Shown: positions 2,615 through 62,009 of the stretch, in pieces
How the letters are laid out: each line of letters begins with the position of its first letter
Numbering within the stretch: position 1 is the stretch's first letter
Assembly: GCA_950295325.1 (NCBI GenBank)
Contig: OX485804.1
Location: forward strand, 22,196,001 to 22,260,000
Direction of reading: 5' to 3'
DNA: 64,000 nucleotides
Origin: Polytrichum commune
Lineage: Eukaryota > Streptophyta > Polytrichopsida > Polytrichales > Polytrichaceae
Program-made: the position numbers and the translations under genes
Notes under the pieces: model-generated
The model's database searches: none
What the model saw: only the letters and a program-made list of their open reading frames with translations
Told to the model about the DNA's origin: nothing

Positions 2615-5600
2615 ATGGAGGACACCGGAGGCGAGCGGCCTTCGTTCCGCAAGCCGGCGCATGATCCTTCGCATCGGAACTACAGGCGTCGGTCGCCAAC
2701 TCTGTCAAAGAGTCCGCCCTCACCTCAGCGCCGTAAGCATCCATAAAGATCTAGTCCTTTGCGTGAGTTCGTGAATTTGTGATCATGACGCAACCCTTGG
2801 CTTGCTTTGTCTGGAGATGAAATGGTTGTTGCGTTGGTTTAGGGTTCCGTCTTTGCCCTAGCCTTATCTCAGTCTTGCTTGAGATTTTCTATCCGTTTTG
2901 TGCACCGGCGAGCCCCTCGATAGCACTAGACAATCGTCCTCAATCACTTCACGGTAAGCTGCTCTAGGTTTGGTCTGGCTCATCCTTTTGAACGCAGCAT
3001 GTAGGTGTTTGAATCTTGATGTTTTATTGACCGCATGGCTAGGTGTTCCACGGGACTTTCTCATATTGACCAATTTTGTTTGCTATATCTTTGGTTGAGT
3101 GTGATTTATGTGAAGTTCCTGTTGTAGAGCTGGCGAACTCTGCTAAAAAAAATGTGGTGTCGGTCGAATTAAAATTTTGTCCAGCTGAAGTGTTGGTCGA
3201 ATTAGGGCTACGTTTCTTATTTTCAAGGTCGAAAGTCGAAGATGAGGTTGACGTGCAGATTTTGATTGCAACATATGCGAGCTGAATTGCTGAATTTTTT
3301 TTGCATGACAAGAATGTGACAATGCATAAGTTTGTGGTCTGTGCATTTGAAATGCTGTAGCCATTTGTGAAGGCCGTTTCTGTTTGAACTTGCGCATAAT
3401 TAGGGTTGATCGATGATTATTGTTATTAATTTGGACATGGTGAAGTTTCTGAATTGTTTCACCGGCACAGGTGGTGGAAAACGCAACCGAAGCACTTCAC
3501 TGTCTCCGGTTCGAGAAACAGCAGGTGGTGCAGGGCGTGTAGATCAAGTGAAGAAGGTGCGTAATAGTGGTTCTGAGAGGAATGACCTTAAAGAACGAAA
3601 TTATCGAAGTGGACGAGGAGATCATTCTCCAGTCTCAGAACGAACATTCCAGCCACCTCACCACACTCATCACCACGGTCGCAATCACAAGGTAGATTAT
3701 AATGACCATCAAGGGGATTCCAATGCTCATGCTGGCTCACGACATGAAACGTACAGGCGTGAACCTGAGTCTGACCGATCAGATTGGAACGACAGGCCTA
3801 GGGAAGACAGAGGGCACAGAGATAGAGAGAGAGATGTTGATAGGGGCAGGGACAGAGGAAAGGGTTTTGATAAAGATGATGATAGAGGTCGAGGAGGGGA
3901 GAGAGGTGGGGGAAGGAATGGAAGCAGAGGAAATATGGAAGGGAGGGATGACACTCAATCAAGAGTCCGGACGACCGAGTGGGATAGAGAGAGGGACAGA
4001 GACAGGAGGGGACCAAGAGACAGGGACCGGGGCTATAACCAAGGTAGTGATGGAGGAGAAATGAGGTATAAGGAGAAGGAAACACATGAGCATAGGTACA
4101 GGGATAATAACAAAGATGGCGACCGTCATAAAGGTTCAGGGAACTCCAGAGGGGATAGGTTGAAGGATGAAGAGGCTGCCAGAGTCACTGAATCTCGTAC
4201 TGAAAGAGATAAGTCTAAGGATCAGAGCAGCCAAAGAGACAGGGACAAAGATCGGTTGCGTCCAAGGGAGGACAAAAATGGCCGTTGTGTGTCCCAAGAG
4301 GTCGGAAAGTTGAATTGCCTTCCTGGCTTTGAAGAGGATGAAAGCGACAGGGTTTCGGATGAGGCTGGTGTGCATCCCAGTGCCACTCAAGGTGACCGAG
4401 GCAGAAATGAAGACGAAGGTGAGAAGGATAGAGGAAAGGACAAGGGTAAGAGGCATAAATCTGTTGTAACTAGAGATGAACGGGAACGAGGAACAACTGG
4501 ATGGGATCAGGTAGTAGTGCCTGGCATGTCAGGCCCTTCTGGTAAATCCAGTAAGGAAAAAACAGGTGTGAGCTCAGTTATCGTGTCTGATGTGTCTGGA
4601 ATTGGAGGAATAGAGAAAAGTGGTGGAAGTGAGGTGCGGGACCATGCAAATGCTGCAGGACAGCTTCCATTATCGGAGGGAAAGAGTGAGGTGGACATGG
4701 AAGGTAAAGGAGCTATTGACCTTAGTAGTGGTGCTCAGCAGCCAGAGGTTCATGACAGTGGGCTGAATCCAGGTGGAGTGGAATGCAGCAAATCAGCAAC
4801 TGTTGCAGGTGGAAAACCTGCAAAGAGCTCCAAATGGGGGCCTGCACCATCTACAGAGGGTTCTATGACAGAAGAAGTTGCTAATGATCTCAACGCTGCA
4901 AAAATGGCTGCCATTAGAGCAGCAGAGTTGGGTGAGTGTGTGAATATCATGGTCACATTTTTGTAGTACACTAGATTCTTTCAAACTGCTAAATCAATCT
5001 CCTGACAAGAAATGCTTGTGTGGTAACACTGCCAATGGATAGTGTGCAATACAAGTTCAAAGAATCATAGGAACCTGTCTATAGGGAATACAAAAATCTG
5101 ATATCTATAAGGTGGGTTAGACAGTACTCAGTGTGACAGGATTACATGGGGCATGTTTACTAGGAGCAAGTTGCATTCATCCTCTTATTGCTTTTGAAGG
5201 ATATTTTCATCTGAAACAATGTGGAAAGTTTTCAGCTACTTTTACAACAAGGAAACAATGAGTGATGTACACATGTATCACTGTGGGCATATATTATGTA
5301 GTTCTTATTTTGAATTGAGATTGGATGCTATTGTGGAAATCAAGAGGATCTTACAGGTATCTTGATGATGATGTGTTGCAGTCAACAAGAACTTGAGTTT
5401 AGCAGGTTTCATGACAGCAGACCACAAGAAGAAGCTACTCTGGGGCAGTAAAAAGGCTGAGGTGGAGCAGGTATCATCACAATTCTACCCTGGTAGGAAA
5501 AGATAAAACATGGGAATTGCTGGAAGTTCTGGAATGTCCAGCTTTGGGTATTGGAGACTCAAGTACAAGTAGGTCCTAGAATATGATCTGTTGGTCTCCT

Positions 5601-6297
5601 CCTGGTTAGCAATGTGGATTTGCCTAACAGCGTAGGCCCTGTTATGGGTAATTGAAATTTTTGGCATGGCCTGGAGATCAGTAGTCCTTTAGATGTATGC
5701 ACTGACTACTGTAATTTTTGTCTTTGATGAGATTTCAAGTCTTCACGTGAGGACTTGCACATACATAGCTATGAGGAGTACTTGTTGAACGTTGACCATG
5801 TTGAACAGGCACTGTGCTATTGGTACGGTTGCATGTGAGTTTTGTGTTGTGTAACTTAACCTGAAGCCTTTGCATGTTGGGACAGGAACCAGTGGTTGCA
5901 GCTGCTGGAACAAATCGGTGGGATACAGTTCATTTTTCAGATCGTGATCGGCGAGAAAAATTTCATAAGCTAATGGTAACTTCTGCACTGTCTTCTGAAT
6001 CTTAATAATGTGAACATCTTGTTTTGCTGTCAACCCTGAAATTGGAGTTTCTTTCTTGTTTCTGTTTTGATATCAATTTGTAAGTAGAGATTTTTAGTAC
6101 CTGAAATTGAGGATTTGTTGTTGTTGATCCCATAGGGTGTGAAGGGCGATATAAAAGAAGGTGAAGCACCACCACCACCAACTGGCACAGCGGTTTTTAC
6201 AGAAGAGAAGCAAAGAGAGCTTCAAGAAGATCTAGAGAAACAGTTCAGTCAGGGACTGCGAAGACGCGATGGGCGTACAGTTGGATTAGGCCTATAG
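2615..6297 (+). CDS. RSRC2: RSRC2-like arginine/serine-rich coiled-coil protein, 5 exons
   Basis: Predicted nuclear SR-related protein of 639 aa, likely acting in pre-mRNA processing. Exons: 2615-2732, 3471-4931, 5382-5470, 5886-5975, 6136-6297; all introns are GT-AG and reading phase is kept across every junction. The N-terminus is basic and Ser-rich, with SPPSP and RSTSLSPVRE motifs. A long RD/RE/DR-rich low-complexity region spans about aa 110-290. A conserved C-terminal block includes LVNKNLSLAGFMTADHKKK (about aa 525-545), FSDRDRREKFHKLMG at the exon 4/5 join, and ends QFSQGLRRRDGRTVGLGL. That ending is characteristic of RSRC2 and the SMAP domain. The start ATG has a good context (aaggATGg) and follows a purine-rich leader. 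Exon 2 could be read through as a 517-aa frame, but joining to exon 3 restores the family sequence. No truncation seen. Family call is strong; molecular role is inferred. Confidence 0.88.
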
Positions 6298-8494: not shown

Positions 8495-9497
8495 TGATCA
8501 TCATAGGTGGCCGACACTAAGAGGTGAATTAATTACACCTCACTGAGTCGGCCTCTCATTTTGTGCCCCCCTTGATACCTCAATTTAAGCATGGCTACTG
8601 TAAACTGATCAATAAATTGGTTAATAAACTCAACGTGTGCATATGCCATGAGTGGAGTTGATGGCTAGGCTAGTTGTTTGGGAGTGGTGAGGTCCCAAGT
8701 GTGAATATCCTAGTTGGCCCCCATAGCACAATTATGTATGCCTGGGTAGGCTCCACACTATGCGGTGACATGCCTAGATAGACATAGACATACTAATTGG
8801 TGGGAGTTTTTGATTTTGTATGTTTAATGTGCACAACTATTTTGATTGGTGTTTAACAGAACTACTAGAAGCCTTCCCCGTCTCTATCTATGTACCCCCT
8901 AACGATGTGCACCAAGTAACTATTACATACAAAGGTATACGGGCCTTAAATGGACTCTTATTTTCTGTCAACACCCACTTCTCGTAGGATATGAAACATG
9001 CATTTAGTGTGAGATGATTAGCAAATCCAAATTGTGCATGTAGCCACTTTCCTCTAAATGTCCAGAGTTCGTATGGATTTCCTAGTCATTGTCCAAGTGA
9101 AGATTCTTTGAGTTATTAAATGATCACCTAGATCCTCCCCCTAACAGTTATAATGACTATTGCATCTACGATGGTTAACAAATTGTGGGCATGTAGTCCA
9201 CTTTCATTTCAACACATGCCTTGTTGGTGTCCATTCTTCGATTTGCATCGAACTATATACCACTTGAATATGGATTTCCGTTTAAGATCACAAACCGAAT
9301 TAGGCATGTCTACCTTAACTCTCGAGGGCCAAGTGAGGTTATTGGACATAACCATTTAGGCGCCCTCCCCTCTTGACCCTATGATCAAGGAGATCGATGG
9401 CCTAGATTGAGGGGGGAGGAGAACAAGAGTTACTTTTGCAGAAGTCGTCATCTTCCCTAAACCCAGAATGCCACGTCATGCACCAAATGGTTATAGA

Positions 9498-9910
9498 CGA
9501 CTAAGGGAGACATGCCTAATTCAACTACTTATCTTTATCGGACATCTATATTGAAGTGGTATGTGGGTTAGGTGTGGCTCCAAGAACGGATACCAAAAAG
9601 ACTAGATTGTGTTTAAAAGAGAATGGACTACGTGCTCAAAACACGATAACCACTCTGAGCTCAATCGTCAACATAATTGGGGAGACCTTTATGACCTTAA
9701 TGACCTTCATGAACACAAGAATCTTCACCTTGATAATGAATAAGATATTCATATAAGCTCCGAAGATGAATCTGAAGAAAGTGGCTGTGGCCTCAGTTTG
9801 GATTTGCCAATTATCTCGTGCTAATCGCGGGTTTCAGATCCTAGGAGAAGTGGGCTAAATGGAAAAAAGTCAACATTCAAGACCCATCTACCGTTACACC
9901 CATTGTTCCT
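9498..9910 (+). repeat. Dispersed repeat R5, copy 1
   Basis: Shares an ordered series of blocks with 14800-15175, 20915-21245, 50245-50870 and 60370-60590: a GACATGCCTAA-type start, a GATAACCACT...CTCAAT block, ACCTATATGACC-type and AGAATCTTCAC blocks, AAGTGGCTACGGCCTC-type and GGATTTGC blocks, and CAAGACCCATCTACC near the end. All five are in the same orientation. No open frame is shared and no termini were identified, so the class is unknown. Confidence 0.6.
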
Positions 9911-13100: not shown

Positions 13101-14799
13101 AGTTAAAATGCGTATGAAAACTTTGTGAAAGTAGAAGGTCTTAACTAAAATATTATAAAATAATAAAAATTACAATATGTGATTGATTTTGGTTCTGTTT
13201 TAGAATGACAAAGACCCTTTCAATGGTAAAGTCACAAAAATTATAACCTCAGTGCTAATGAGGGTTTTGTAACATTTTTGACCTCCAAGTTACTTACATG
13301 TTTTTTTGGCAGTTTCACTTTGAAAATGAGATACCAATCAATTGCTTATTTACTTAATGAAAGTGAACATGTATATTGAATTTTGGACCTTGAAGGTGAA
13401 GTACATTCAATATGGGATTTGTGGATAAGTGGCCTTCAAGAATGCCAGGGCAATGGTTTTTTCGAAGTCGGGCGGGCTGACAACAGTTTTCGGTCAGGTC
13501 CAAAAAATCTGGATTTTCTGGACGGGCGGCTGCCCCTACCCGAATCTACCTGCCCCGGAAAGTTCATGGGCCAGAGTTTAATGTCCCCCATATTCCAAGA
13601 TCATTGAACCAGCTGACATGGTTGAATAACGTTACGAATACTCATATATAAATTATGATAGATTTCACTGAAATATTGCATAGAATTGTATAATCTATGC
13701 ACAAAATCTACCAGCAGCTTACAGGCAAGCTACCAAGTTCTTGAAGCAACCTGACATGAGAAATGGCATCGACCATCACGAGCTGCCTATTTATGTCCCA
13801 AAAAATACTCACTTGACATGACTATAAAACCACCAGTTTAGCTACGGAGGTCGTATACCCTTGTAACATAATATTGACCTTCTATACAATATTTTCATCC
13901 TTCTGATGATATCACTACAACAGAATTATGATCCCACAAATCTTGTTGCTGGCAGGTACCATGAATATACACGATAAGAGAGAGCGTCTCAAGATGCAGT
14001 AGTCCTGCCTGCAGTTCACAGAATTACAGAAAGGTCAAAATCCACAGCTCCACCGCCTCACATTTATCATTGCCAATTGCATATCAAATCGCACTATTTT
14101 ATGAGGTATACGGGCCTCAGGTTGTCACAACCATATACCTATACTTGAGTGGTATATATTGGCAAGGTGTGTAGTTAGAATGGACACGAAAAAATTATCA
14201 CATGTTATGATGAGATTGCACTACATATGTGCACAAACTATATCAAACGATGTACATTTATCGACACAATTGGGAGGGCCTTTGCCATGGCGGTTAACAA
14301 GAAAGAGCTTCTTCTCCTTGGACACTGATTCTGAAACTTGCAGAAATGTCAATCTCCGTGACTCGCAATTACAAACCAAATGAGGCAATTTCTGAGCTGA
14401 TCCAATGTCTGTGGAGATGGAATTAATGCCCATAACAAGCCATCTACCATAGATAATTATCTGCACGCAATGCAGCAAAACTGCAAGCAATAATCTCACA
14501 CTACCACCATACGCGTCACATGCAACACATCCGTTGTCCCTGAATATATATGTTGGAAATCTATCAGTCTTATGGTAGATGTTCAATTATTTCAGTGAAA
14601 AAGGACATGTTGCACGGGAATCCTACGATGGTAATTAATGTCATCTCTCCAAAGCCCTGATGAATTCAAGAGCTTGTCGAAATTAACCATACCTTGTTAA
14701 ACGAGCAAGAGAATCAATTGATGACTCTTTGGACTCTTATAAATCTGCATCTCTACTCTGATTCTGCAATTGGAAATGACAATCTTCATGACTCGCATC

Positions 14800-15175
14800 T
14801 AAGGTAGAGGTATCTATTTTGGTCACCTATCTTAATCGGATACCTATGGTACCACGGTATGTGGTAAGGTGTGGCTCAAAGCGGATATTACCAAAACGAC
14901 ATGTGTTTGAAAGTGACGGGACTATACGTGCTCTGAATATGATAACCATTATAGGCTCAATAATCAACATAGCTGGGGGACCTATGTGACTATGTATTGA
15001 GCACAAGCATTCTCACTCTGACAATGAACATAAGATATAATTCATAAGGAAAGTGGCTACGGCTTTGATTTGGAATTGCTAACCATCTTGTAAGAATCGC
15101 GTGTTTCCATTATCCTTGGAGAAGTTGGCCAGTCAGAAAAACGTAACCATTCAAGACCCGCCTCAGACCATTTGA
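14800..15175 (+). repeat. Dispersed repeat R5, copy 2
   Basis: Has the same ordered blocks as the copy at 9498-9910. It lies downstream (3' side) of secreted-protein gene A, in the position matched by copy 3 beside gene B. Confidence 0.55.
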
Positions 15176-15394
15176 ACCAAATAGATTCGATAATACTCGA
15201 GCTGATCTAATGTCTGTAGAGTTGGAATTGCCCACAACAGGGCCACAATCCGCTCAGAGATCTATCTATCTGCAGGCTTGAAGCGGCACCAAACCTGCAA
15301 CTATCTCATCTCTCAAAAGCCTCGATCGATTTGAGATTCATTAGTATGTACCTGTCAATCTTTCACGCTACAAATGATACCACATGTTGTCAAT

Positions 15395-15781
15395 CTAGAG
15401 AACGACGACGATGTTGGCGAGCACGAGGCCGAGCAGACTGTTGAGCAAGCCTCCCACAAGGCCCGTGACGACGGCAGTCACCTTGATCTGGATGGTCGTC
15501 CCCACATACACAAACACGAGCGCGGTGACGTCCGCGGGCACAACGCAGGTGCCCTTGACAACGTTGCCGGCTGCGTCCACGACCTCCACGACGGCGGGCA
15601 CATCCACAATCACGTCGACTGTCACCGTGGCGCCCACAGGAATGGGCACGCCCTGGCATGTGAGGGGCGCCGGGGTGTTGTTGGTGCACAGCACATTGTA
15701 TCCATGCGAGCCGCTCACCGAGGCCGCCAGCAGCATCACGCAAATCAGAGCATTCCTAGTGGCGACCAAAGACGAAGCCAT
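15395..15781 (-). CDS. Secreted hydrophobic 128-aa protein, paralog A (unrecognised family)
   Basis: Intronless frame of 128 aa, far more GC-rich than its surroundings. It has a signal peptide (MASS, then a hydrophobic core ALICVMLLAASVSG, predicted cleavage near SHG-Y28). The mature part begins YNVLCTNNTPAPLTCQG and has three cysteines (about aa 32, 42, 78). The middle is Val-rich with alternating hydrophobic residues, suggesting beta strands. The last ~27 residues (TGLVGGLLNSLLGLVLANIV) are strongly hydrophobic and could be a membrane or interaction segment. It is 82% identical to paralog B (105 of 128 by my alignment), with cysteines and C-terminus conserved, which argues for selection. 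Upstream lie a TATA box and repeat array. I do not recognise the family; secretion is inferred. Confidence 0.8.
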   Translation of the reverse strand: MASSLVATRNALICVMLLAASVSGSHGYNVLCTNNTPAPLTCQGVPIPVGATVTVDVIVDVPAVVEVVDAAGNVVKGTCVVPADVTALVFVYVGTTIQIKVTAVVTGLVGGLLNSLLGLVLANIVVVL

Positions 15782-15862
15782 TTAAGATAACTGTTGTTGA
15801 AACTTGTTGCTCGGGAGCCTAGTAAGTGCTGTGATGATGATCAAATGGGGAGACGAACCGAT

Positions 15863-15907
15863 GAAGAAACCGAAGAAACCGAAGAAACCGAAGAAAGTGA
15901 AGAAACT
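15863..15907. repeat. Five 9-bp tandem repeats (GAAGAAACC)
   Basis: Three exact GAAGAAACC units followed by two variants. They lie between the TATA box and ATG of paralog A, so in its transcript they form a pyrimidine-rich leader. The paralog B leader lacks them. Confidence 0.7.
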
Positions 15908-16005
15908 GGTCACGGACAAGCTGCTGGAGGAAAGCGGATCAACTACTAGTAGCTCGGGTTGCTATGAAATCAGAGCATTGAGGTTCCAAGGAGCTGCAGC
16001 TCTGA

Positions 16006-16012
16006 TTATATA
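16006..16012 (-). promoter_or_regulatory. TATA box of secreted-protein gene A
   Basis: TATATAA on the minus strand, 225 bp upstream of the ATG. The surrounding AGCTCCTTGGAAC-type block is conserved at paralog B, where the flanks otherwise differ. Conservation of this block supports it as the core promoter. Confidence 0.65.
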
Positions 16013-16019
16013 TGCTCCC

Positions 16020-17010
16020 GTGATGTGATTGCAACCAATGTGCGCCAGGAGATTCTTTGCCGTAGGCTTGTCCATGTGCTTGAACCTAAATTTTGTGTGT
16101 AGGTGTAAGGTATGACGTGGGTGTTAATCAGTACGTTTTTCATTTCCTCTAACTTTTACTGATTAGATTTACACAACGAAATTTGTGTTGCCTTAGGAAA
16201 TCTATGATGAAGCAAATTTAGCAAAACTTCAATTGAAAATCAGATGTCCCCTAGTTATGGGAAGTGCATGTTTGTTGATTTCTTAACTGGGTATATAGGT
16301 GCTCCCAATTGTAGTCACTTTTAAGTGTGAAGTAGTTTAATAATAAAGTTCAAAGAGTAGTCCAATCTCTGTTAATCATATGTTGTTATGATGTTTGTTC
16401 TTTGATCCTCACCTAACCACACACCGATCAAATGTAGAAGTCCTATTAAGAAAAGTAACTGAATAACACCTGCATACGTTGGGTCTCACGGAGTTCTCCA
16501 TTTCGGAATTTTTGGTGTGCTGGTTGAAGTCATTGTTTCACTGCCCTGATTTCATAGCCTCTGTTATTGTGATTTGAGCTAATGTGCAGCAGATTTGTCA
16601 TAGCCTTGTCCACGTACCTGAAGCTACATGACTTGCATGTAGGTGTATTTCACAAGAAATTTTCGACTTCAAATTGTTTGATGTGCTGGTTAAAGTCACC
16701 GAATTACATATCCTCTGGATTAATGTGATCTGAACCAAATGTATTATTAGCAAAATCGTCATAATTTGTAGGCTCCTCCACGTACTTGAAGCTACATAAT
16801 TTGCATGTAGGTATGTCTCGCAAATTTCTGGACTTTGTAATTTCTGATGTGCTGGTTCAAGTCATGGATTCACTCCAATTGCACAGCGGCCTCTGGGATT
16901 GATGTGATTTGAAGGTCCAATGTGTGCCAGCAGTTTCGTAGGTTAATTTACGTACTTGAAGCTACATGATTTGTGTGTAGGTATAGATCTCATGAGATGT
17001 CCCACTTCAA
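16020..17010. repeat. ~165-bp tandem repeat array A, upstream of gene A
   Basis: Four diverged units share the order AATGTGCAGCAG, then CTTGTCCACGTACTTGAAGC, then ATTTGCATGTAGGTATA, then GATGTGCTGGTTCAAGTCA. The landmark CACGTACTTGAAGC falls near 16066, 16609, 16775 and 16943, a period of ~167 bp apart from one gap filled by a TIR element. Confidence 0.7.
16108..16478. mobile_element. Probable short TIR element inside array A
   Basis: Ends are imperfect inverted repeats of about 25 bp (GGTATGACGTGGGTGTTAAT on the left; reverse complement of TGAATAACACCTGCATACG on the right). The ~370-bp interior is unlike the array units, so it looks inserted. The exact boundary and target duplication are not clear. 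Confidence 0.45.
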
Positions 17011-17460
17011 AATTCTTGATGTCCTGGTTAATCTAGTCATCAAAATTATCCAATCACTGTCGAGACACGGTCGGACTGGGTGGAGTGATGTTGTGCAAGA
17101 TGCTTTTGGCACTGTAGGCTGGGGAGACCTAGATTGCCAAGTTGACAGTCATGACCATACATCGCGCATATTTCATATCAAAGTGGCTAGAGCTTCAAGG
17201 CATCTAGTAGGTAAACTCATCCACTATGAAAGATGAAAGCTTAGAGAGCTACTTTATAGCCTGGTTAATTAGAATCATTTCAAATTCTTGCAGATTTGCA
17301 TCAAAGACCCTGCATCACTCTAATGGACCTTAATTGAGATTAAACGGGCCTAATCTTATATGGCGCAAGCTGACTTTTGATAAAGCCGTTCCACCCATAA
17401 TAGATGAGCTTCATTACCTACTAGATGCGATCAGGGATCGATATTACTAGTCAAGAATCG

Positions 17461-17790
17461 AACACGACGAATTAGTCAAGGAACACATCACCTCCTGAAA
17501 CATCCCTTTCCCTTAATACCATAATAACTTCACTTGCATGACTCAGAAATAAATCGCAACAGAGGAATGCCTGGCCGCCCCGGACCGAGTCTTGACAATG
17601 GTTGATTCGCTTTTCATGACAAGCGGCCTTCTTTCTTGTGACCCTGAAATTCTTCAAGGACAGGTAGATGTCACTACCCATGTCGGGCTCTGCCCAGTAC
17701 CCATGTGCTCAGGCAAAGCGGTGACAATGAGCTTGTCGATGTGTTTGTCTCGCAATATCTGAGATTCTTCAAGCATGCAACCTTTGCCCA
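17461..17790 (+). repeat. Dispersed repeat related to 27078-27410
   Basis: Shares blocks with 27078-27410 in the same order: GAATTAGTCAAGG, ACATCCCTTTCC, CGAGTCTTGACAATGGTTGA, GTCGGGCTCTGCC, GTGACAATGAGCT and GCAATATCTGAG. The 27-kb locus then continues as a tandem array; this copy does not. Confidence 0.65.
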
Positions 17791-18122
17791 TTGGCAAGTT
17801 TTTACGTAGTACTAATTCATCTCAACTTACTTTCACCTCCACTCTCAATAGTGGAACCCCCTTAACAATATCCCATAGATATAATATATTTAGAAGAAGA
17901 AAAAAATTAAAAAGAGTTCCATGACATTTGAAAGATGACTACATAACTTAGTCCAACAAAAATAAATATAATGCACCTGGTATTAATGTGTTTCAATTGC
18001 GTTAATGTCAACTTATTGAGCACAATAATGTCATAAATATGACATTTTCTCTCAGTGGAAACTAAGAATATCACTAAGTTGACAAATGAATATGACATCA
18101 AATCCACTGAATTCCAGTAGTG

Positions 18123-18126
<4 letters not shown>

Positions 18127-18171
<45 letters not shown>

Positions 18172-18187
18172 GTTTTGTTTTGTTTTT
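18127..18187. repeat. (CT)n microsatellite followed by (TGTTT)n
   Basis: Twenty CT units run from 18127 to 18166, then four TGTTT-type units follow. Simple sequence only. Confidence 0.9.
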
Positions 18188-19306
18188 TCATACTTTATAT
18201 ATTCATTGAGTCTTACAAGCTTTCCCTCCCATGCATTGTATTTAAGGATGTTTGGATAGTGCTCAAGTATCAAGAATATGATAATTATGTGTTTTGAAAT
18301 AAATTATTATATAGACATGCAAGAAGTGATGAAATAACTGAGAAAAGTAAAACGCACATAATTGTTGGCTAGCACAAAAATAACTCACGACAATAGTTAA
18401 CAAAGCAATGGCCATGTCAAGGTTAAGTCTATTTTAAAGGCTATGAGCAATGGGCTTTCAATTAGACTAGTAAATGAGCTCATCTACATTTTCTTCTAGA
18501 ATGACACCTCAATGCCACATGTCTAGTAGTACGTGTCATTTCAATTTCTAACGTGTGACTTTTTTCTTCACAAGTCACGTTAAATGTCAAATTCTAAATT
18601 GTGTGTGAGTTAATGTGCATTTTATTTTGTGCGTGTCAAATGTCAAAAACTTGCAAAAACCTTGTCAAAAATACACACTGCCCCTATTTTTGCCAACTTT
18701 CCTTGCCTCCTAGCCCCGCGGACTGGTTCCTTCTTCTACCCCCTAACATTGGCCATTCCTACATAAACTTCTTATCATTTAGGGCTGCCCAACCCCGCCC
18801 CTAATTTAGGGCCATATATGAATAAAAGGGTACACATCTTTTGAGGGATTTGAGGATGATTTGGCAATGCCCCTCCTAACTGATCCTAAGTGACATATTT
18901 TATGATTGAGTTTTCAATCTTTTTTCATGAACATTAATTAGCCTCAACGTTCTCTTTCCAAATCTAAGTTGCAATTTAGGCATGAGATTTCTAAATGGAT
19001 TTCAGCCCAAAACCTGGCTTGCCCAGGATCCTTCATGAATAAGGCCGGTAAGCACTAGAGAAATAATCATGGCCCCTACATCACACCTAACACAAGCTTG
19101 GTATGTAAGATGTTTTTTAATTGGAAAAGAAATGTATGTAGGTATTCTCCACTTTGTGTGGACCACATTGAACTTCTCACACCCCACTGCACTTTGAGTA
19201 GGTCAGTTCCAATGGATGGATAATTACTTTAAAAACAAAGTTACACAACAACACCGAAAAGAATAAGGATAACCCCTATGCCCTGCCTATGTTTGCCACA
19301 GTGTCT

Positions 19307-19515
19307 GAGGAGATTTTGGCCATAAACTGTCAAAATCTTAGTGTTTCCAAGTCCAACCGGTTATATGTTGTGTGATTTTTCGGTTGTTCTTTATTAAATT
19401 GAGGTATATTCCATGGATTCCTCTACAGTGGTTGGTAATTTTCCTGAAGTCTTGAACTTCAGCCACTTGTTTCTCAAACTCAACCGGATCATTTGTAACT
19501 AGTGGTCAGTACTCC
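19307..19515. mobile_element. Solitary arm of the long-TIR element
   Basis: Matches the right arm of the 7477-8494 element in the same orientation: AGTGTTTCCAAGTCCAACCG, TTTATTAAATTGAGGTATAT, CTTGAACTTCAGCCACTTGT, AACTCAACCGG, ending ACTCCC. No partner arm was found nearby, so it is a remnant. Confidence 0.65.
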
Positions 19516-20914
19516 CAGCATAAATTAGTGACTCTCTCTGCCCCCAGGTTATTGCCTCAATTAAGAGATAGCATCTCTTTAAAGGCCGTAAAGGGGTCCA
19601 TCATTATAAGTGCATATGATCACTTTGAAATACTAATAAGGCAATGGAATATATGATACTTGTAAGTATTCATAAGCGATTGTGAAAATTCAGTTATAGG
19701 TACTTTGAGTACATTTACATTTGGAATACAATACTATCGAAATGACTTCCTCATATATATACTGAGTGTTTGGATGAGGTCATATGAAACAAATTATAAA
19801 AGTGAACTGTAAAACCGGACTTTTGAGAAGTCCTCAAATCCTCCATGGAGACATTTCAGTTATAATACTGAAGTTCTTTGTGCATTATTTGGTTCTTGTG
19901 GAGAAGAAACGTGCCTAAAATCCCAACGACTGGTTTTGTACACAGAGTTGTCCTAATACTAGCTCCACTGATTGTTACGGTCAAATCAAATATTATGATT
20001 CTATGCCTATGTTTGACTTCACTCGAAAGGAAAACTTGCATGTATTCAAGAACATGTACAATCTTATTTAGTTCAAATTTCCCCCATTAATCATATTGAA
20101 GTTCTTGAATCTCAATTATAAGACACTGAATGACGGTCGTGTTGTTACATCTGTGGATCCGGCATTTGCAGTGAAGTTTGCATAGCCAAAACCAGTATCG
20201 AACCTAAAACCAACACTACGTACCACCACAATGGGACCGCCATACATTTAGGAGCTTCAAAAGATCAAATGGCCTTGATAAGCTGCCATGGTTTTATTCC
20301 ACAGTAAATACTAGCCTGACATTAGTAACAAGATCACAAGTTCGGCTTCAGAGGTGGACGACTACCTGCCCTGCACTTCACGATCATGGGAACTTAACCC
20401 TGCGACATAATATTAATCTTTCTGATACAAATTACATCATCGTCCTCCTGATCAATTCACCGTCACAAAATTTTCAATCCCGCAAATGTTGACTGGCAGG
20501 TATTATGTGCACATGATGCGAGGGAGTGCCTCAAGACGCACGAGTACGTCCATCAGGCCTGCCTGCAGACTGCAATTCGCAAAATCACAAAGAAGGTCAA
20601 AAACCACAGCTCAATCTCCTGATATCAATATTGTATATTATCGACACGCACAATTACATGGTATGTGGGCCTTATGTGGTCACTCTTTTTATTCCGACAC
20701 CTGTAGTTGAGTGGTATATGTCAAGGCATGTAGTTTAAAAAGGGCTAACTACGGACACCCAAAGACCACCAAGGATGTGTTATGGTTAGATTGCACAAAC
20801 TAGTATATGAACAACCAAATTATCTAGGTTCAATAGTGAACGAAATTGGGAACAAGAACCTAGAGCTTCTAGTGAATCACTTTGGACTCTGATTTTGCGT
20901 CTCTACTTTGATTT

Positions 20915-21245
20915 TGAATCTTGTAAGGTAGACATGTCTAATCTGGCTACTTATATGTGTTACAAAGAGAATTTTAGAGTATGTGCTCAAAATATAATAA
21001 CTCTTTTACGCTCAGTAAACAAAATACTTGGGGACCTATATGACCACTTAATGAGCATGAGAATCTTCACTTTGGTGTTCAATCAGGTATGCATATCAGA
21101 TCCAAAAATTATGAGGAAAGTGGCCACAGCCTCGGTATGGATTTGCTAACCATCACATACGAATTGCGTGTTTTAAATCCTCATCCGAGAAGTGGCCAAG
21201 TCGGAAGATGTAACCATTTAAGACCCACCTACGTTAGAAATGATG
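20915..21245 (+). repeat. Dispersed repeat R5, copy 3
   Basis: Same block order as the other R5 copies, including AGAATCTTCACTTTG and AAGTGGCCACAGCCTCG. It sits ~200 bp downstream of secreted-protein gene B. Confidence 0.55.
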
Positions 21246-21442
21246 ATCTCCATCATGACTCGCAACTACAAACCAAATGAGACTAGTATTCCCACACCGA
21301 TCCAATGTCTGTAGAACGAGTTGGAAATACCTCAGATATCTATCTTCAAGCAACGCAACAAACTGCAACTTCTCATCGCAGCATCTCTCAATGCCTCGAT
21401 CTATTCGAGTCGAGGTTATCGAGAATAATAATACCTGTCAAT

Positions 21443-21829
21443 CTAGAGAACGACGACGATGGAGGCGAGCACGAGGCCGAGCAGAGCGTTGAGCAGCCCT
21501 CCCACAAGGCCCGTGATGACGGCAGTCACCTTGATCTGGATGGTCGACCCCACGTACACAAACACGAGCGCGGTGACGTCCGCGGGCACAATGCACGCGC
21601 CCTTCACAACTTTGCCGGCTTTGTCCACAACTTCCACGATGACGGCCACATCCACGGCCACATCGACAGTCACTGTGGCGCCCACGGGAATGCGCTTGCC
21701 CTGGCACGTGAGGGGCTTCGGCGTGTTGTTGGTGCACAGGACATTGTAACCGTGCGCGCTGCTCACCGAGGCCGCCAGCAGCAGCACGCAGATCAGAGCA
21801 CTCTTAATGGCAGCCGACGACGAAGCCAT
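21443..21829 (-). CDS. Secreted hydrophobic 128-aa protein, paralog B (unrecognised family)
   Basis: Intronless 128-aa frame, same length as paralog A and colinear with no gaps. The signal peptide has the core ALICVLLLAASVSSAHG with likely cleavage before Tyr28. The same three cysteines, the IPVGATVTVDV and VPADVTALVFVYVG blocks and the hydrophobic C-terminus are kept. Differences from A cluster in the signal peptide and at variable sites such as 38, 45-46 and 58-70; several give B extra lysines, so B is more basic. GC content is high against AT-rich flanks. A TATA box and repeat array lie upstream. Two intact copies argue for a working gene. No family recognised; an extracellular or cell-surface role is inferred. 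Confidence 0.8.
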   Translation of the reverse strand: MASSSAAIKSALICVLLLAASVSSAHGYNVLCTNNTPKPLTCQGKRIPVGATVTVDVAVDVAVIVEVVDKAGKVVKGACIVPADVTALVFVYVGSTIQIKVTAVITGLVGGLLNALLGLVLASIVVVL

Positions 21830-22009
21830 GATTTTTGTTGTTGTAACTTGGCCCTCGGCCCTCGCTCAAAAACCTACGTGCGCCGGCTGTGATAAATGAT
21901 GAAACTGAAGGGCTGGACCTGGTCAGTGACAAGCTGCTGGAGGGAGCGGATCATCTGCTGCTCAAGTTGGAATGAATGAGCGTTGAGGAGTTCCAAGGAG
22001 CTGCTGGTA

Positions 22010-22016
22010 TTATATA
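22010..22016 (-). promoter_or_regulatory. TATA box of secreted-protein gene B
   Basis: TATATAA on the minus strand, 181 bp upstream of the ATG, next to the same AGCTCCTTGGAAC-like block seen at gene A. Confidence 0.65.
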
Positions 22017-22019
22017 CGC

Positions 22020-23340
22020 CTGGTCGATGTGATTTAAACCAAATTATGTGCAGCAGGTTCTTTGTAGGCTTTGCCACGTACTCGAAGCTACATGGTTAAT
22101 TCTGCGCAGGTATAGATCTTGCGAGTTTATCTGCAATGTCAATTCTTCTGACTTCGGGATGTTTGGAATGCTGATTCAAGTCTTGGAATTCTTTCTCTGA
22201 TTAGCCCATATAGCCTGAGTCAGCTGATGTGAATTGAGGCAATGTGTGGCAGGTTCTTTGTAGCCTTGTCCATGTACTTGAAGCTACATGGGTAATTATG
22301 CATAGGTATAGAACTCGCGAGTTCATGCGCTACTTCAAATATTTTGACTTCGGGATGTTTGATGTGTTGGTTCAAGTCATTGAATGACTGCTCTGATTAG
22401 CCCATTAGCCTTAATCATTATATTCGTTAATTGGAGACTTTTTCATGATTTGGAGACTAATAAAAGACTTCAAGTCTCATATTGTGTTTAGTGCATGTTT
22501 TGATTATGATATAGATACTTATTATATTAGAAATATATATACTCCTCATGCATGAGTATGTAGAAAGGTCATTACCAATGTTCTCCACGTTCACAATATT
22601 GCATCCCAAACTATGAGTAAAGTTTATTTTGAGACTTTCCAAAGTCTCCAATTAACGAATATAGATATTAGTTAGTTAAATTATTTCATTTACAGAGATG
22701 TGCAGCAGGTTCTTTGTAGGCTTGTCCACGTATTCAAGGCAACATGGGTAATTCTGTGTAGGTATAAATCTCGGGAGCTCATCAACTTTGGAATTTTTGG
22801 CTTCGGGATTTCTGATGTGTTGGTTCAAGTCACTGCTCCAATTAGCCTATGTAGGCGAACCGTTTATGTGATCTGAACCAAATGTGTAGCAGATACATTC
22901 TAGGCTTGTCCATGTACTCGAAGCTACGTGATTTATAAAGAAACAAGTCTTGAAATCTTGAAAGTTTTCATCCACTTTGAGATTTTTTATTTGCTGGTTT
23001 GAGTCATCAAGTCATTGCTTGGATTATAGACTAGCCTCGGTTAATGTGAAGCAGATATGCCATAATTAAGCTTGTCCACATACCCGAAGTTACAATAATT
23101 GCGTGAAGGTATAGATCTTGTGAACTTTGCACTTCAAAATTTTCGATGTGCACGTTCAAGTAACCGAGTCAGTACTGTTCCATTTACATAGCCTCTGGTA
23201 AAGTGATTTGTACCAATGTGCCGCAGATTCGTAGGCTCACCTAGGCACTCAAAACTACAGTTGTGTGTAGGTATAGATAATAGAACTCACATAATTTTCC
23301 AAGTTCGAAAATTGTGCTGTGCTGGTTTGAGTCATAGAAT
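22020..23340. repeat. ~165-190-bp tandem repeat array B, upstream of gene B
   Basis: Six units with the landmark CTTGTCCACGTACTCGAAGC near 22076, 22266, 22722, 22907, 23069 and 23236. After subtracting the inserted 241-bp element, the spacing is 162-215 bp. Units match array A in internal order. The array begins beside the TATA box and extends away from the gene. Confidence 0.7.
22421..22661. mobile_element. MITE with 21-bp perfect TIRs and TA target, in array B
   Basis: The left end TATTCGTTAATTGGAGACTT is repeated exactly, inverted, at the right end; 21 bases match. The 241-bp element is flanked by TA on both sides, consistent with a Tc1/mariner-type target duplication. No coding capacity. 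It lies between array units, so it came after the array formed. Confidence 0.75.
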
Positions 23341-23560
23341 CACTGTTGGTGTCACAGTCGGTTGGGGATGGAATAGTGCTGTGTATGATTTATACTTGCA
23401 TGGTGCAGCCGAGTAACTTACAAGATGTTTCAAGTTTGTAGGCCGGTGGGACCTCGATCGCCTTGACAGTCATGACTGTAGTTGTTTATTTCATACCAAA
23501 GTGACTACAGCTTCATGGAGTCTAGTAAACTCATCTAAGGTAGACGAGGCTAATGTGGAC

Positions 23561-27077: not shown

Positions 27078-28063
27078 TCGGACATGGCGAATTAGTCAAG
27101 GCCCACACATCACCTCTTCAACATCCCTTTCCTCCTACGGAAACGACCTTTGCATTTGGACTTGGTAGAATAAATTGCAATGGACTTATCATGGGTGGCC
27201 CCCGGGGACCGAGTCTTGACAATGGTTGATTTGCTCTTTGTGACAAGTGGCCTCCGGCTTCCTCGTGACCCCCAATCGCTTCGGGGACAGTCAGATGTGA
27301 CGACCCATGCCGGGCTCTGCCAATACCCAGGACGGGCTCAGCCAAAAGTGGTGACAATGAGCTCCTTAATGTTTCGCAATATATGAGTTTCTTCATGCAT
27401 GCAACCGGCTAGTGATTTGTGATGTCTATGTAAACTCATCCATTGCGGAGGTGAAAACATAGTGCATTATATAATAGCTTATAAATGTCTACTTTTAGAT
27501 GTCCCGGGCTAGATCACATCTTCATTTGGTTGGGTCCTGCCCCTCCCATGCCTCCTTCACCGCCTCGTCTTAGGATGTGCTCAGGCAAAAGTGGTGACAA
27601 TGAGCTCGTTAATGTTTTGCAATATCTGAGATTCTTCGTGCATGCAACCGGCTAGTGATTTGTGATGTCTATGCAAACTCATCCATTGCGGAGGTGAAAA
27701 TGTAGTGAGTTATATAATAGTTTATAAATGTCTACTTTTAGATGCCCCGGGCTAGATCACATCTTCATTTGGTTGGGCCCTGCCCCTCCTACGCCTCCTT
27801 CACCGCTTGGTCTTAGGACGTGCTTAGGCAAAAGTGGTGACAATGAGCTCGTTAATGTTTCACAATATCTGAGATTCTTCGTGCATGCAACTGGCTAGTG
27901 ATTTGTGGTGTCTATGTAAACTCATCCATTGCGGAGGTGAAAACATAGTGAATTTTATAATAGCTTATAAATGTCTACTTTTAGATGTCCCGGGCTAGAT
28001 CACATCTTCGTTTGGTTGGGCCTTGCCCCTCCCATGCCTCCTTCACCACTTGGTCTTCCTGCA
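27078..28063. repeat. 243-bp tandem array with leader
   Basis: The landmark CATGCAACCGGCTAGTGATT recurs near 27396, 27639 and 27882, exactly 243 bp apart. Each unit includes AACTCATCCATTGCGGAGG, a CCCGGGCTAGATCACATCTT block and GTGGTGACAATGAGCTC. Units are highly similar, so the expansion is recent. The leader (27078-27330) also occurs at 17461. Confidence 0.8.
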
Positions 28064-42532: not shown

Positions 42533-44042
42533 CTACAAGTTCAAGTAGCCACATGACCTCATTATAGGAGTACATTGGAGCGTGAATGAATTTGTCACTA
42601 TTGTAATCCACCCTGCACAAAAATCTAAACACATAATGAAGATGTTTATAATACATTCATTTCCTTTTTCTTCCCAAAGATTGAGCAAATGTTTTGAGAA
42701 GTCAGGGCATGTGCATTGTCGTATATCACCAATTGTGACACGGTATGCAATATCCTCCTTGGAGACAATATTGATTAACACTCCAAATCCGAGATATGGA
42801 ATGGCAGTTACTCCAACCACATAATAACCGTTCATGAGCCCAACACTCTCTCATTTGTTTTTGTGTTATGCCATTGGTGTTGCTAGATTACGGCACACTA
42901 TTTTTTCAAACTTGGAAGTTGGGTGGACATCCAGGTTCAGTGGAGCACAACAACCCATTCGAGGGATTGGAAGTGTGGTGATCGTGGAAATTAAAGCATG
43001 CGGCGAGAAGAGAGAACCTCCCTCTGGTGCAATTAAAACCCAACATCTTCAAGTGCCAATACCAGTATCCTCCCGCTTAAGTACGCATCTTTTGGCAAAA
43101 AAATTAGGGTTCAAGATTTCTTAATTGAACATGTCGTGAATCGTCATTTGGCGTAAGTTTTGAAGTTTTGAAGTTTGGCTTTAAGGCCGACCACTCGGAT
43201 CTTGCTCTGTAATGATTCAAACGATTTCTTAAGGCCATAAAAAATTTCCTCTGCTTCTGCTTGAACTTCAAGGCAGAGCAACTAATCCTCGTTGTCAAGA
43301 ACCTGCTTATAAAGAGGACAAAATCCTAGAATATAACTACGTTTTCTAAACTGACATTCAATTTATAAGTGTTAACATCGCCTTCACTAACGATGTACTC
43401 TCGGGCTAGAGCCGTTTTACTTGGAGTATTCGTTCTGCTAAGCTTCAAGATGATTTCGCAACGTTGATGCTCTTTGAGACGTTTTCCGTTTGGTTTCTTC
43501 GACATTGTAGTGAAACACAAGCGATTAGGGAAACCTTAAGCCCTAAAGTACACACCTACCGGCTATAGCGAAACACAAGCGATAGCGATTTGGGAAACCC
43601 TAAAGTACGCACCTACTAGCTAAGTACGCACAAACTGCGCATGTTCAAGTTGCGTACTTAAGCGGGAGGTTAGTCTACCTCATGCTTTGAGAAATTGGTA
43701 CATATCTTCACCGGCCATGTGTTGGGTACTACAAGCCAATCCAACACAAGGTTTTTTTCTACCATTTACACAACGTTTGATGTCATCCGGGCAAAACCAA
43801 AACTCGTACTCCACATTGTTGGTGGAGCGATACTCCTTCTTCAATCCCTTGTACGTAGGAGCAGGGGAGCCATGTTTTCCAATCCCGACTTTGACGTTGC
43901 AAAGAGCCCCGGTATTAACTTGCATGGCCCAACATCTTTTAGCAAAGTTGGGTGGCAATCTTGCAATGTGCCAATGGAAAGAGACACGATCAATCTCTAA
44001 CACGGATGGGGTATGTGCCACACCATGCTCTGCATAATTCAA
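42533..44042 (-). pseudogene. SWIM zinc-finger protein pseudogene, split by a Tigger-derived element
   Basis: Read on the minus strand, a 120-codon piece at 44042-43680 (FHWHIARLPPNFAKRCWAMQ..., FWFCPDDIKRCVNGRKKPC) is followed, after the inserted element (43068-43670), by 43067-42533. The second part reads LDVHPTSKFEKIVCRNLATP, then MNGYYVVGVTAIPYLGFGVL, then YRVTIGDIRQCTCPDFSK, the CxC half of a SWIM zinc finger. A shifted frame supplies HLHYVFRFLCR and FIHAPMYSYNEVMWLLEL, giving the expected C-terminal continuation. At least two in-frame stops (near 42870 and 42855) and one frameshift break it. SWIM domains are common in MULE/FAR1-type transposase-derived plant proteins; whether this is host-derived or transposon-derived cannot be told here. 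Confidence 0.6.
43068..43670 (-). mobile_element. Tigger/pogo-derived short element keeping the HTH domain, copy 1
   Basis: TIRs CCTCCCGCTTAAGTACGCA, identical in inverted orientation at the two ends, with TA on both sides (43066-43067, 43671-43672), as for Tc1/mariner/pogo elements. Subterminal AAGTACGCACCTAC motifs repeat inside. The minus strand encodes an N-terminal domain (from 43505): MSKKPNGKRLKEHQRCEIIL, ..SRTNTPSKTALAREYIVSEG. This matches the CENP-B/Tigger type of helix-turn-helix DNA-binding domain. The frame then ends and the DDE catalytic part is missing: an internally deleted copy. It sits inside the SWIM pseudogene. Confidence 0.75.
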
Positions 44043-53597: not shown

Positions 53598-53834
53598 AAG
53601 TCATGTGAGATATTTAATTATCTTGTCAATAAATAATGATTTGAAAAATATAGGAAAAACTGCATTTTCAATGTTAAACTCGTTTTTAATGGGTCTCACT
53701 CAGCTGAATAGACTGGTTGTAGATTTAAACAACATGCATTTGTGATGTTATTTTAATAAACAATTTGAATATAAACAATTTCGATTGCATGAGGAAGCAG
53801 GCATGTGGAGGGAAACTATATGAGTATGCACTGG

Positions 53835-54860
53835 CCCCCCCTTACAAACCAACCTTCTAACACTCCTATATACATAAATTACGACATATGCCTACCCCTC
53901 AAATACCACCCACAATTTTGCTACTACACGGATGGATCATTCATACCACCCAAAGAAATCACCCGAGGGCATTGGAAAAGAGAAAAAGCAGGGTATGGTA
54001 TATATAACCCTTTCAAACACCTCAAAATCACAGAAAGACTACCCGGACTCCAAAATATACTTAGGGCAGAACTTATGGCTGTACACCACACCCTCCACCT
54101 CCTCACTACCACATACCGGAACGAACCGGCGCACATCTTTACAGACTGTCTCAATGTCTTATACCTCCTAAACACGCAAACCAAACACCCAACTCTACAC
54201 AACAACCACCCGGACAAAAAGATACTAGAGTCCATAATCAAGATGTTGCAAACTCGCACACAAACCACCACCCTTCACAAAGTCAAAGCCCACACAAACA
54301 TTCAGGGTAACGAACAAGCTGATAAATTAGCCAAACTGGGCTGTGAATTAGAACATAGAGACGCTATAGCCACACATGAACATGCGCACCCAACGCCATA
54401 CTACCTCCACAAGGACTGGTGGCATTCAATGCAAGAAACACCTGACAAAGGCCCCATCCGCCACCTTAGCAAATACATCATCAAACACGATAAACAACAT
54501 AACCTATCCATTCTAGCAACCCAAACCCACCAATTACATAAATGGCTTGATAACAAAGATATTGACAAAACATTATCAAATGATTTTTGGACCAATCCGG
54601 CTATCTCAGACAAACAAAAAACGTGCTTAGTAAAATTCCGAACCGGCCAATATATGGGACAAGCTAGAAAGCAACTCTTCTTCGGTAGAACTGCATACCC
54701 ATCCCATACATGTAACATTTGTACCTCATTAGAGGTGGATACATGGCTACATCTACTCCTTAAGTGCAAACAACAACACATCCACGCACTAATAACAAAA
54801 AGACATAACAAAGCGGTATGGGAAATTCGCAAACTTCTCGTCTCTAATAAAATAACATGA
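53835..54860 (+). pseudogene. LINE ORF2 fragment: RNase H domain and Cys/His knuckle
   Basis: This frame is open through the 5' truncation point, so it has no true start of its own; the upstream ATG at 53805 lies in the flanking DNA. RNase H residues are in place: Asp in CYYTDGSF, Glu in ILRAELMAVHHTL, Asp in HIFTDCLNVL, and the His/Asp pair in VKAHTNIQGNEQADKLAKLG. Downstream, HTCNICTSLEVDTWLHLLLK followed by C is the C..C...H...C knuckle typical of the end of such polyproteins. RNase H would remove RNA from the cDNA hybrid. A TGA ends the frame, but coding continues in the same frame 12 bases later. Confidence 0.8.
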
Positions 54861-54872
54861 CACTACATACTC

Positions 54873-55385
54873 ATGAACGCATGCACGTATAATGACTTAC
54901 CCCAAGATAACACCATACCTACATGGTTACTTCCCTGCACGTGTGGCATACAAAGATGTCATTGTAACGCCAGACTCAAACCCGACATACTATGCATTAT
55001 AGGACACCCCTATAATTCCCCGCCACCAGAAACACCTACACCAACCACCACTATCCAATTTATAGAATTTACATACTGTAATGATAGGTTCTCTACAGAA
55101 ACACTTGAAAGAAAAACCACCAAATATCAACCACTCATTAACAACATCAAAGCACGGGGGTGGAATGTCGCCCCACTCATAGTACTTGCCTCAGGCGCTA
55201 GAGCCACAACACACATCCCATCAATGACCGAACTAGAAACGAAACTTAAACTCCCTACAACACAAATTAGGCACACATTTAAACAAATTAATATTATCGC
55301 CACACAGTATGCACACTCAATACTCATCCATAAACGAAGAATTGAAAATAACCAACCCATAAACGACCTACAACACCACACATAA
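54873..55385 (+). pseudogene. LINE ORF2 C-terminal region with KPD nuclease-like motif
   Basis: A 170-codon frame in phase with the preceding RNase H frame, separated only by TGA and four sense codons; the two were probably one protein. It has a Cys-rich motif LPCTCGIQRCHCNARLKPDI followed by LCIIG, then, after a spacer, FIEFTYCNDRF. A CCHC-like knuckle followed by (K/R)PD and an acidic residue is the signature of restriction-like endonucleases (REL) of R2- and Dualen-type LINEs; the acid may be in PPPE (14 residues on) or in FIEF. The rest is helical with a basic C-terminus. The REL assignment is inference from motif order. Confidence 0.55.
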
Positions 55386-58464: not shown

Positions 58465-59141
58465 ACCTCCCACTTAAGTATGCACCTGTTTAAGTACGTA
58501 TTTTTGGCAAAAAAATTAGGGTTCAAGATTTCTTAGTTGAATATGTCGTGAATCGTCATTTGGCGTAAGTTTTGAAGTTTTTTGCGTTTGGCTTTGAGGC
58601 CGATTGCTCAGATCTTGCTTTGAAATGATTCAAACGATTTCTTAAGGCCATCAAATTTTCCTCTACTTCTGCTTGAACTTCAAGGCATAGCAACTAATCC
58701 TTGAAATCAAGAACCTGCTTATAAAGAGAGTCGGAACCCTAAAATATAACTCTGTTTTCTAAACCAACAATCAATTCTTGAGTGTTAACATCGCCTTCAC
58801 TAACGATGTACTCTCGGGCTAGAGCCTTTTTACTCGGAGTATTCGTTCTGCTAAGTTTCAAGATGATTTCGCAACATTGATGCTCATTGAGACGTTTTCC
58901 GTTTGGTTTCTTCGACATTGTAGCAAAACACAAGTGATTTGGGAAACCTTAAACCCTAAAGTACACACCTATTGGCTATAGCGAAACACAAGCGATAGCG
59001 ATTTGGGAAACCCTAAATCCTAAAGTACGCATCTACTAACTATAGCGAAACACAAGCAATTTGGGAAACCCTAAAGTACGCACCTACCAGCTAAGTACGC
59101 ACAAACTGCGCATGTTCAAGTTGTGTACTTAAGCAGGAGGT
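58465..59141 (-). mobile_element. Tigger/pogo-derived short element keeping the HTH domain, copy 2
   Basis: TIRs ACCTCCCACTTAAGTA and a near-perfect inverse (one base differs in the CCC tract), flanked by TA (58463-58464 and 59142-59143). Colinear with the copy at 43068-43670, with one extra subterminal AAAGTACGCA(C/T)CTAC unit. The minus-strand frame from 58918 again encodes MSKKPNGKRLNEHQCCEIIL, ..PSKKALAREYIVSEGDVNT and stops soon after. The retained HTH domain differs from copy 1 at only a few residues. Confidence 0.75.
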
Positions 59142-61951: not shown

Positions 61952-62009
61952 CTGGCCGCGGGGAAATGTAAGGGGGTAGTTTGGGAGAGGAGGCAAGGCA
62001 GGCGCAGCC

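Follow-up and report, generated by a model that had tools for sequence, protein, structure and literature searches.

A Duplicated Pair of Intact, Probable Genes

As summarized in Table 1, two intact ORFs that are probably genes, copy 1 (P0001) and copy 2 (P0002), were found in the analyzed stretch of DNA (64 kb, hereafter the window), each with a TATA box and a tandem array on its upstream side. The first-pass annotation had described two intronless genes for 128-aa proteins of 82% identity, and this was borne out, 105 of the 128 residues being identical and both ORFs being intact; the term intronless holds for the coding part, whereas the UTRs may contain introns. At the nucleotide level, 338 of 387 positions of the coding sequences were identical, with zero indels.

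Table 1. Coordinates of the features of the two gene copies within the window.
Feature	Position	Strand	Basis
Copy 1 (P0001) CDS, 128 aa, mature pI 4.05	15395..15781	-	intact ORF
9-nt tandem repeat, 4.9 copies, between copy 1 TATA box and ATG	15863..15906	.	TRF and alignment
TATA box TATATAAT, copy 1, ~231 nt before ATG	16005..16012	-	promoter alignment
Copy 1 array: units start 16038, 16582, 16749, 16920; partial unit 16485-16579	16038..17095	-	nhmmer, core and full-unit profiles
Copy 2 (P0002) CDS, 128 aa, mature pI 8.56	21443..21829	-	intact ORF
TATA box TATATAAT, copy 2, ~187 nt before ATG	22009..22016	-	promoter alignment
Copy 2 array: units start 22046, 22242, 22698, 22882, 23044, 23216	22046..23386	-	nhmmer; partly repeat search, TRF
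MITE-like insertion splitting copy 2 array; 30-nt inverted arms, 90% complementary	22412..22670	.	inverted arms

The surrounding ~3.3 kb was aligned colinearly and split into 39 segments of 100 columns. The four wholly or mostly coding segments showed 77-93% identity with 0, 0, 0 and 3 gap columns, whereas 28 of the other 35 segments fell at 47-77% and 34 of the 35 contained gaps; outside that range were one segment at 39%, a pair at 34% and a group of four, at the far 3' end, in which hardly any bases aligned. Between the copies, local BLAST matches reached 13866 and 20405, respectively, at 66%, and a duplication of ~3 kb or more is thus a fair estimate. These values agreed with the earlier description of the coding parts as the best conserved portion of a duplication of more than 3 kb. 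Their description as GC-rich islands in AT-rich DNA was likewise sound: GC at codon positions 1, 2 and 3 was 0.64, 0.42 and 0.81 in both copies, and 57 of the 64 one-kb bins of the window had a GC content below 0.45. No third copy was found in the window by tblastn (next best E 0.54).

Elsewhere in the window, gene pieces with a Branch domain (PF02485, 62880-63471) and with a SMAP domain (PF15477, 5865-6294) were identified, one piece scoring above and the other below the Pfam cut-off in each case, and a LINE-type RNase H was located at 53793-54857. Together these features give the impression of a land plant, although the Branch and SMAP domains are not confined to plants and are present in other eukaryotes. 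Scans of the whole window with Rfam (gathering scores) and for tRNAs gave no match.

TATA Promoter and Promoter-Like Arrays

Alignment of the upstream regions revealed that blocks on both sides of the TATA box are conserved between the copies and that leader blocks occur at matching positions. The 9-nt repeat of the copy 1 leader was absent, as an array, from the copy 2 leader by TRF and alignment. The TATA-proximal promoter of both copies is adjoined by an array of units of ~165-196 nt, four plus one partial at copy 1 and six at copy 2. An nhmmer core profile recovered four sites ahead of copy 1 and six ahead of copy 2, ten in all; elsewhere in the 64 kb the best-scoring site had an E-value of 0.075 in the last round. 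A full-unit profile recovered the identical ten sites and one partial (E 2e-38 to 4e-11) and no further site up to E 0.1 in the window; these units score high by construction, since the profile was built from those ten, and the absence elsewhere is unaffected by this.

In order to compare the units with the promoter, the TATA-proximal pieces beside the gene-adjacent units served as queries, and the spacers after the other eight units were tested. Compared with 3000 random pieces of the window, seven of the eight resembled the TATA-proximal promoter (p <= 0.012), and seven also matched when 500 shuffles each served as the background (p <= 0.044; better of two queries in both cases); the non-matching eighth, after unit 22698, borders the MITE-like insert. 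With the TATA half of the promoter alone, four of the eight reached p < 0.05 (best of two queries). These matches indicated kinship between the array units and the promoter region, and their sequence suggests that each unit may once have held a TATA box. Similarity between the copies extends to the far flank of the array (17113-17221 vs 23437-23535, 75%), and the array therefore probably predates the gene duplication. Between the copies the units pair off unclearly. The copy 1 array is interrupted between ~16225 and 16484, and both arrays were broken later, that of copy 2 by the insert with 30-nt inverted arms.

Compatible with any reading of the proteins, and a serious contender although somewhat short of even odds, is the explanation that the arrays represent a local satellite of the ordinary kind, which lies next to the gene by chance and plays no part in its expression. 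A period of 165-196 nt is typical of plant satellites, the units are just 43-78% alike overall, and the disruption of both arrays, one of them by a MITE-like insert, points in the same direction. The sequence shared by the units with the TATA-proximal promoter, together with the position of the arrays next to the promoter in both copies and nowhere else in the 64 kb, argues against it.

Properties and Affiliation of the Encoded Proteins

The signal peptide, three conserved cysteines and hydrophobic C-terminus proposed in the first-pass annotation were all present in both copies, the signal peptide as a prediction: the N-terminus read from the sequence is signal-peptide-like in both proteins, C32, C42 and C79 are conserved in the mature part, C14 sits inside the signal-peptide-like part, and the C-terminus carries the small residues G107, G111 and A/S115. 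Counted from G27, the 102 mature residues include 28 Val in copy 1 and 25 in copy 2, with GRAVY values of 1.28 and 1.17, respectively. The hydropathy of residues 109-127 was 2.2 (copy 1) and 2.4 (copy 2), and the last 28 residues contain no charged residue in either copy. The mature proteins are of opposite charge, acidic for copy 1 (-3.3) and basic for copy 2 (+1.7), and this property and the promoter-like arrays are additions to the earlier annotation. The difference in pI (Table 1) arises from five positions (38, 45, 46, 70 and 73) that carry Lys or Arg in copy 2 but no charge in copy 1; at three of these positions the codons differ by two bases.

The Pfam listing, which ran to E 10 but from which HMMER filters drop most matches above E ~0.1, contained no match for copy 1 and two unrelated, insignificant ones for copy 2 (E 0.11 and 0.12). 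NCBIfam listed zero matches, the PDB sequences gave one unrelated match to copy 2 (E 1.9) and none to a two-sequence profile, plasmids, GTDB contigs and viral contigs yielded no relative of copy 2, and viral contigs yielded none with the two-sequence alignment of the pair. In PHROG, P0002 matched phrog_32763, of unknown function, at E 0.0011, whereas P0001 reached only 0.14; the other three rows were phrog_38157 (E 0.05) and phrog_21580 (E 0.23 and 0.047). Seven controls made from the mature part only (one reversed, six shuffled) gave no match in five cases and E-values of 8.6 and 0.97 in the others; they never reached 0.0011, and the phrog_32763 match is thus not plainly one of composition. 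Kinship was nevertheless disbelieved, considering the value for P0001, the phage origin of the family and the overlap of the match with part of the signal peptide. The proposal of an unrecognised family accordingly holds against Pfam, NCBIfam and the PDB sequences; relatives were otherwise sought in prokaryotic, viral and plasmid collections, and the family may well be already known to plant databases. Among the papers listed for secreted Val-rich or hydrophobic plant proteins, none was recognised as an account of this protein.

AlphaFold models built on the two sequences were of low confidence (pLDDT 43.8 for the full and 45.0 for the mature form). Both were strand-rich, the strands occupying the central part of the chain, and a C-terminal helix longer than a few residues appeared in the first (full) model only. 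Foldseek against the PDB with the first model returned 691 matches at E <= 10 and none at E <= 0.001; the best was a laccase (E 0.0084), with amicyanins among the next, and these matches were disregarded in view of the poor quality of the model.

The Ole e 1 family has a beta-sandwich fold with conserved cysteine pairs, and the phylloplanins are small, Ole e 1-related proteins. That the pair is a divergent member of this or a similar secreted beta-sandwich family, lying beyond the sensitivity of profile searches, seems unlikely. In its favor are the similar size, the predicted signal peptide, the hydrophobicity and the strand-rich, low-confidence models. Phylloplanins are described as proteins secreted at the leaf surface (PMC3980785) that are hydrophobic and highly glycosylated (PMC12758173). 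On the other side stand the Pfam listing, which to E 10 includes no such family for either protein, the PDB sequence and profile results given above, and the Foldseek result (0 of 691 at E <= 0.001), although the model is too poor for the latter to count.

Slightly less likely still is a membrane- or GPI-anchored cell-wall protein, in which the signal peptide is combined with a hydrophobic tail reaching the exact C-terminus. GPI anchoring follows rules in which an omega site with small residues is followed by a spacer and then a hydrophobic tail. The two-signal layout, the hydropathy of residues 109-127 and the uncharged last 28 residues are as such a protein would have them, but G94-S/T95-T96, the best omega site on visual inspection, leaves 34 residues to the C-terminus, which is longer than usual, and a hydrophilic spacer is hardly present.

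Selection on the Coding Sequence

Protein-level selection had been considered likely in the first-pass annotation, with dN/dS between the copies as a check. Estimates obtained with Biopython for P0001 against P0002 were 0.53 (NG86), 0.38 (LWL85), 0.48 (YN00) and 0.42 (ML). In the pairwise codon-model fit over all 128 codons, omega was 0.42 and omega = 1 was rejected (LRT p 0.009), which moderately supports selection over the whole protein; codons 27-128 gave 0.38 (p 0.010) and codons 27-80 gave 0.29 (p 0.007). For codons 81-128 alone, which include the tail, omega was 0.67 and did not differ from 1 (p 0.60). These codons are the best conserved part of the protein with three silent-only codon changes, and since they are conserved at silent sites as well, protein selection alone cannot explain their conservation; partial gene conversion is a possible cause of their low divergence. 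The dS of 0.21-0.31 looks low beside the flanks, mostly 47-77% identical, the latter being percent identity and not a distance.

When the same number of changes was placed at random, a mean of 31.5 amino-acid changes resulted, compared with the 23 observed; 15 of 5000 runs were as low as 23, and a stop codon arose in 46% of the runs. The differences by codon position (16/13/20) were weakly periodic. Both copies also have an open frame opposite the gene, whose NG86 ratio of 0.57 is similar to that of the sense frame, so that dN/dS alone cannot choose the strand. The sense frame was taken as coding because both copies share its ATG, its N-terminus is signal-peptide-like and it has the TATA box. 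Antisense coding was judged less likely, as the ATG-started antisense ORFs begin at different places and are of unequal length (138 vs 195 aa) and the antisense frame carries 31 amino-acid changes. Of six poly-A hexamers sought within 750-800 nt downstream, one variant (AATGAA) was present at copy 1 and none at copy 2, which counts against the reading favored below.

That there is no gene, the GC-rich ORFs being chance frames in a duplicate conserved for another reason (an antisense ORF, a non-coding RNA or gene conversion), would suit the open antisense frame with its similar ratio, the silent-site conservation of codons 81-128 and the weak periodicity, but is very improbable in view of the ATG and stop identical in both copies, the signal-peptide-like N-terminus, the TATA box on the sense side, the 23 sense changes against 31 antisense and 31.5 expected at random, the unequal antisense ORFs and the window without an Rfam match at gathering scores.

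Proposed Role of the Pair

Taken together, we favor, with a probability of roughly 45%, a genuine paralogous and probably expressed plant gene pair that encodes a lineage-restricted secreted protein in two charge forms and carries amplified promoter modules. The pair is intact, the protein as a whole is under selection against amino-acid change, and the copies have a common TATA promoter with a promoter-like array at each. The predicted signal peptide, cut near AHG|YN or SHG|YN, would direct the protein into the secretory path, where the mature ~101 residues may fold as a Val/Thr-rich beta-sheet domain, one of the three cysteines being left free or used for inter-chain pairing. The C-terminal ~22 residues, including G107, G111 and A/S115, could form a hydrophobic helix that anchors the protein at the membrane, cuticle or wall, or in oligomers; we infer such a membrane or surface role from the composition. 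The acidic and basic forms, split through the five Lys/Arg positions of the 38-73 region, might thereby bind different surfaces, and the repeated promoter modules may boost or tune expression. The likeliest role would be apoplastic or surface protection, phylloplanin-like in action without implying membership of that family.

More doubtful than either the beta-sandwich or the anchored-protein alternative is the specific proposal, made by analogy with rDNA spacer promoters, that tandemly amplified promoter modules drive an unrecognised hydrophobic secreted-protein family, each gene being preceded by four to six degenerate copies of its promoter region, an array older than the duplication that would serve as a built-in enhancer. 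If real, the favored reading would provide a compact case of a duplicated secreted protein that shifts its charge but hardly alters its hydrophobic tail, and a test case for tandem copies of promoter DNA as an enhancer of a protein-coding gene; otherwise, the pair would be another orphan secreted plant protein.

Relation to Other Systems

Phylloplanins, of the Pollen Ole e 1/phylloplanin family (PF01190), offer the nearest functional comparison. They are described as secreted leaf-surface proteins (PMC3980785), highly glycosylated and hydrophobic (PMC12758173), and deployed on tobacco plant surfaces (PMC12758173, PMC3980785). The present pair resembles them in being small, hydrophobic and, by prediction, secreted, but lacks an Ole e 1 profile match in Pfam and is extreme in its Val content (28 and 25 of 102) and its hydrophobic C-terminal tail. 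The three mature cysteines also differ in spacing from those of phylloplanins.

With the orphan small secreted proteins of plants, the pair shares a short length, a single coding exon, a signal-peptide-like start, a local duplicate and the lack of a recognised domain. Such proteins are usually Cys-rich or basic peptides, whereas the mature protein here is very hydrophobic and its gene is preceded by a promoter-like array. The promoters of rDNA intergenic spacers are repeated, degenerate and located upstream of the main promoter, and the arrays described herein are similar to them in having tandem degenerate promoter-like units upstream of one intact promoter; in contrast to the rDNA case, the array here precedes a gene that codes for a protein and has a TATA box, and its action as an enhancer is putative.

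Weak match of P0002 to a phage protein family

When P0002, the hydrophobic, Val-rich protein encoded by copy 2 (21443-21829), was compared with the PHROGs, a weak match to phrog_32763, a family annotated as of unknown function, was obtained with an E value of 0.0011, which none of the control sequences, prepared by reversing or shuffling the mature part of the protein, reached.

Repeats surrounding the two genes

The features located in the window are summarized in the table below. Units of the promoter-like arrays were found nowhere else in the 64-kb window beyond the two arrays upstream of the genes, and the dispersed repeat family (68-78% alike) has members 3' of both copy 1 and copy 2. The segment 27078-27406, which adjoins the 243-nt tandem repeat, was 73% alike to 17458-17782.

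Features located in the window
Feature	Position	Details
Arg/Asp-rich ORF (3410-4963), then SMAP-domain pieces	3410-6294	PF15477, E 0.0015 and 6.9e-08
Dispersed repeat family	8932-9896, 14825-15163, 20956-21236, 60362-60571	68-78% alike, both orientations
Tandem arrays, promoter-like units of 165-196 nt	16038-17095, 22046-23386	Upstream of copy 1 and copy 2, respectively
MITE-like insertion	22412-22670	Inverted arms of 30 nt; within copy 2 array
Tandem repeat, three 243-nt units	27329-28057	92-94% identical
Repeat pair	43064-43622, 58477-59042	89% identical
LINE-type ORF with RNase H, then second ORF	53793-55385	RNase H ORF: PF00075, E 2e-16
Tandem repeat, period ~64 nt	58921-59075	Contains telomere-like AAACCCTAAACCCTAAA
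Two Core-2/I-branching pieces	62880-63471	PF02485, E 5.1e-08 and 0.00066

Other coding regions

Pfam searches returned no match for 3410-4963, 54861-55385 or 61980-62276. The piece at 61980-62276 looks, by eye, like part of the Core-2/I-branching (PF02485) gene. The Arg/Asp-rich ORF (3410-4963) and the SMAP pieces following it (to 6294) perhaps represent an RSRC2-like splicing protein. In the ORF at 54861-55385, next to the LINE-type RNase H ORF, visual inspection suggested a PD-(D/E)XK endonuclease-like motif, of the kind present in Dualen or Utopia elements.
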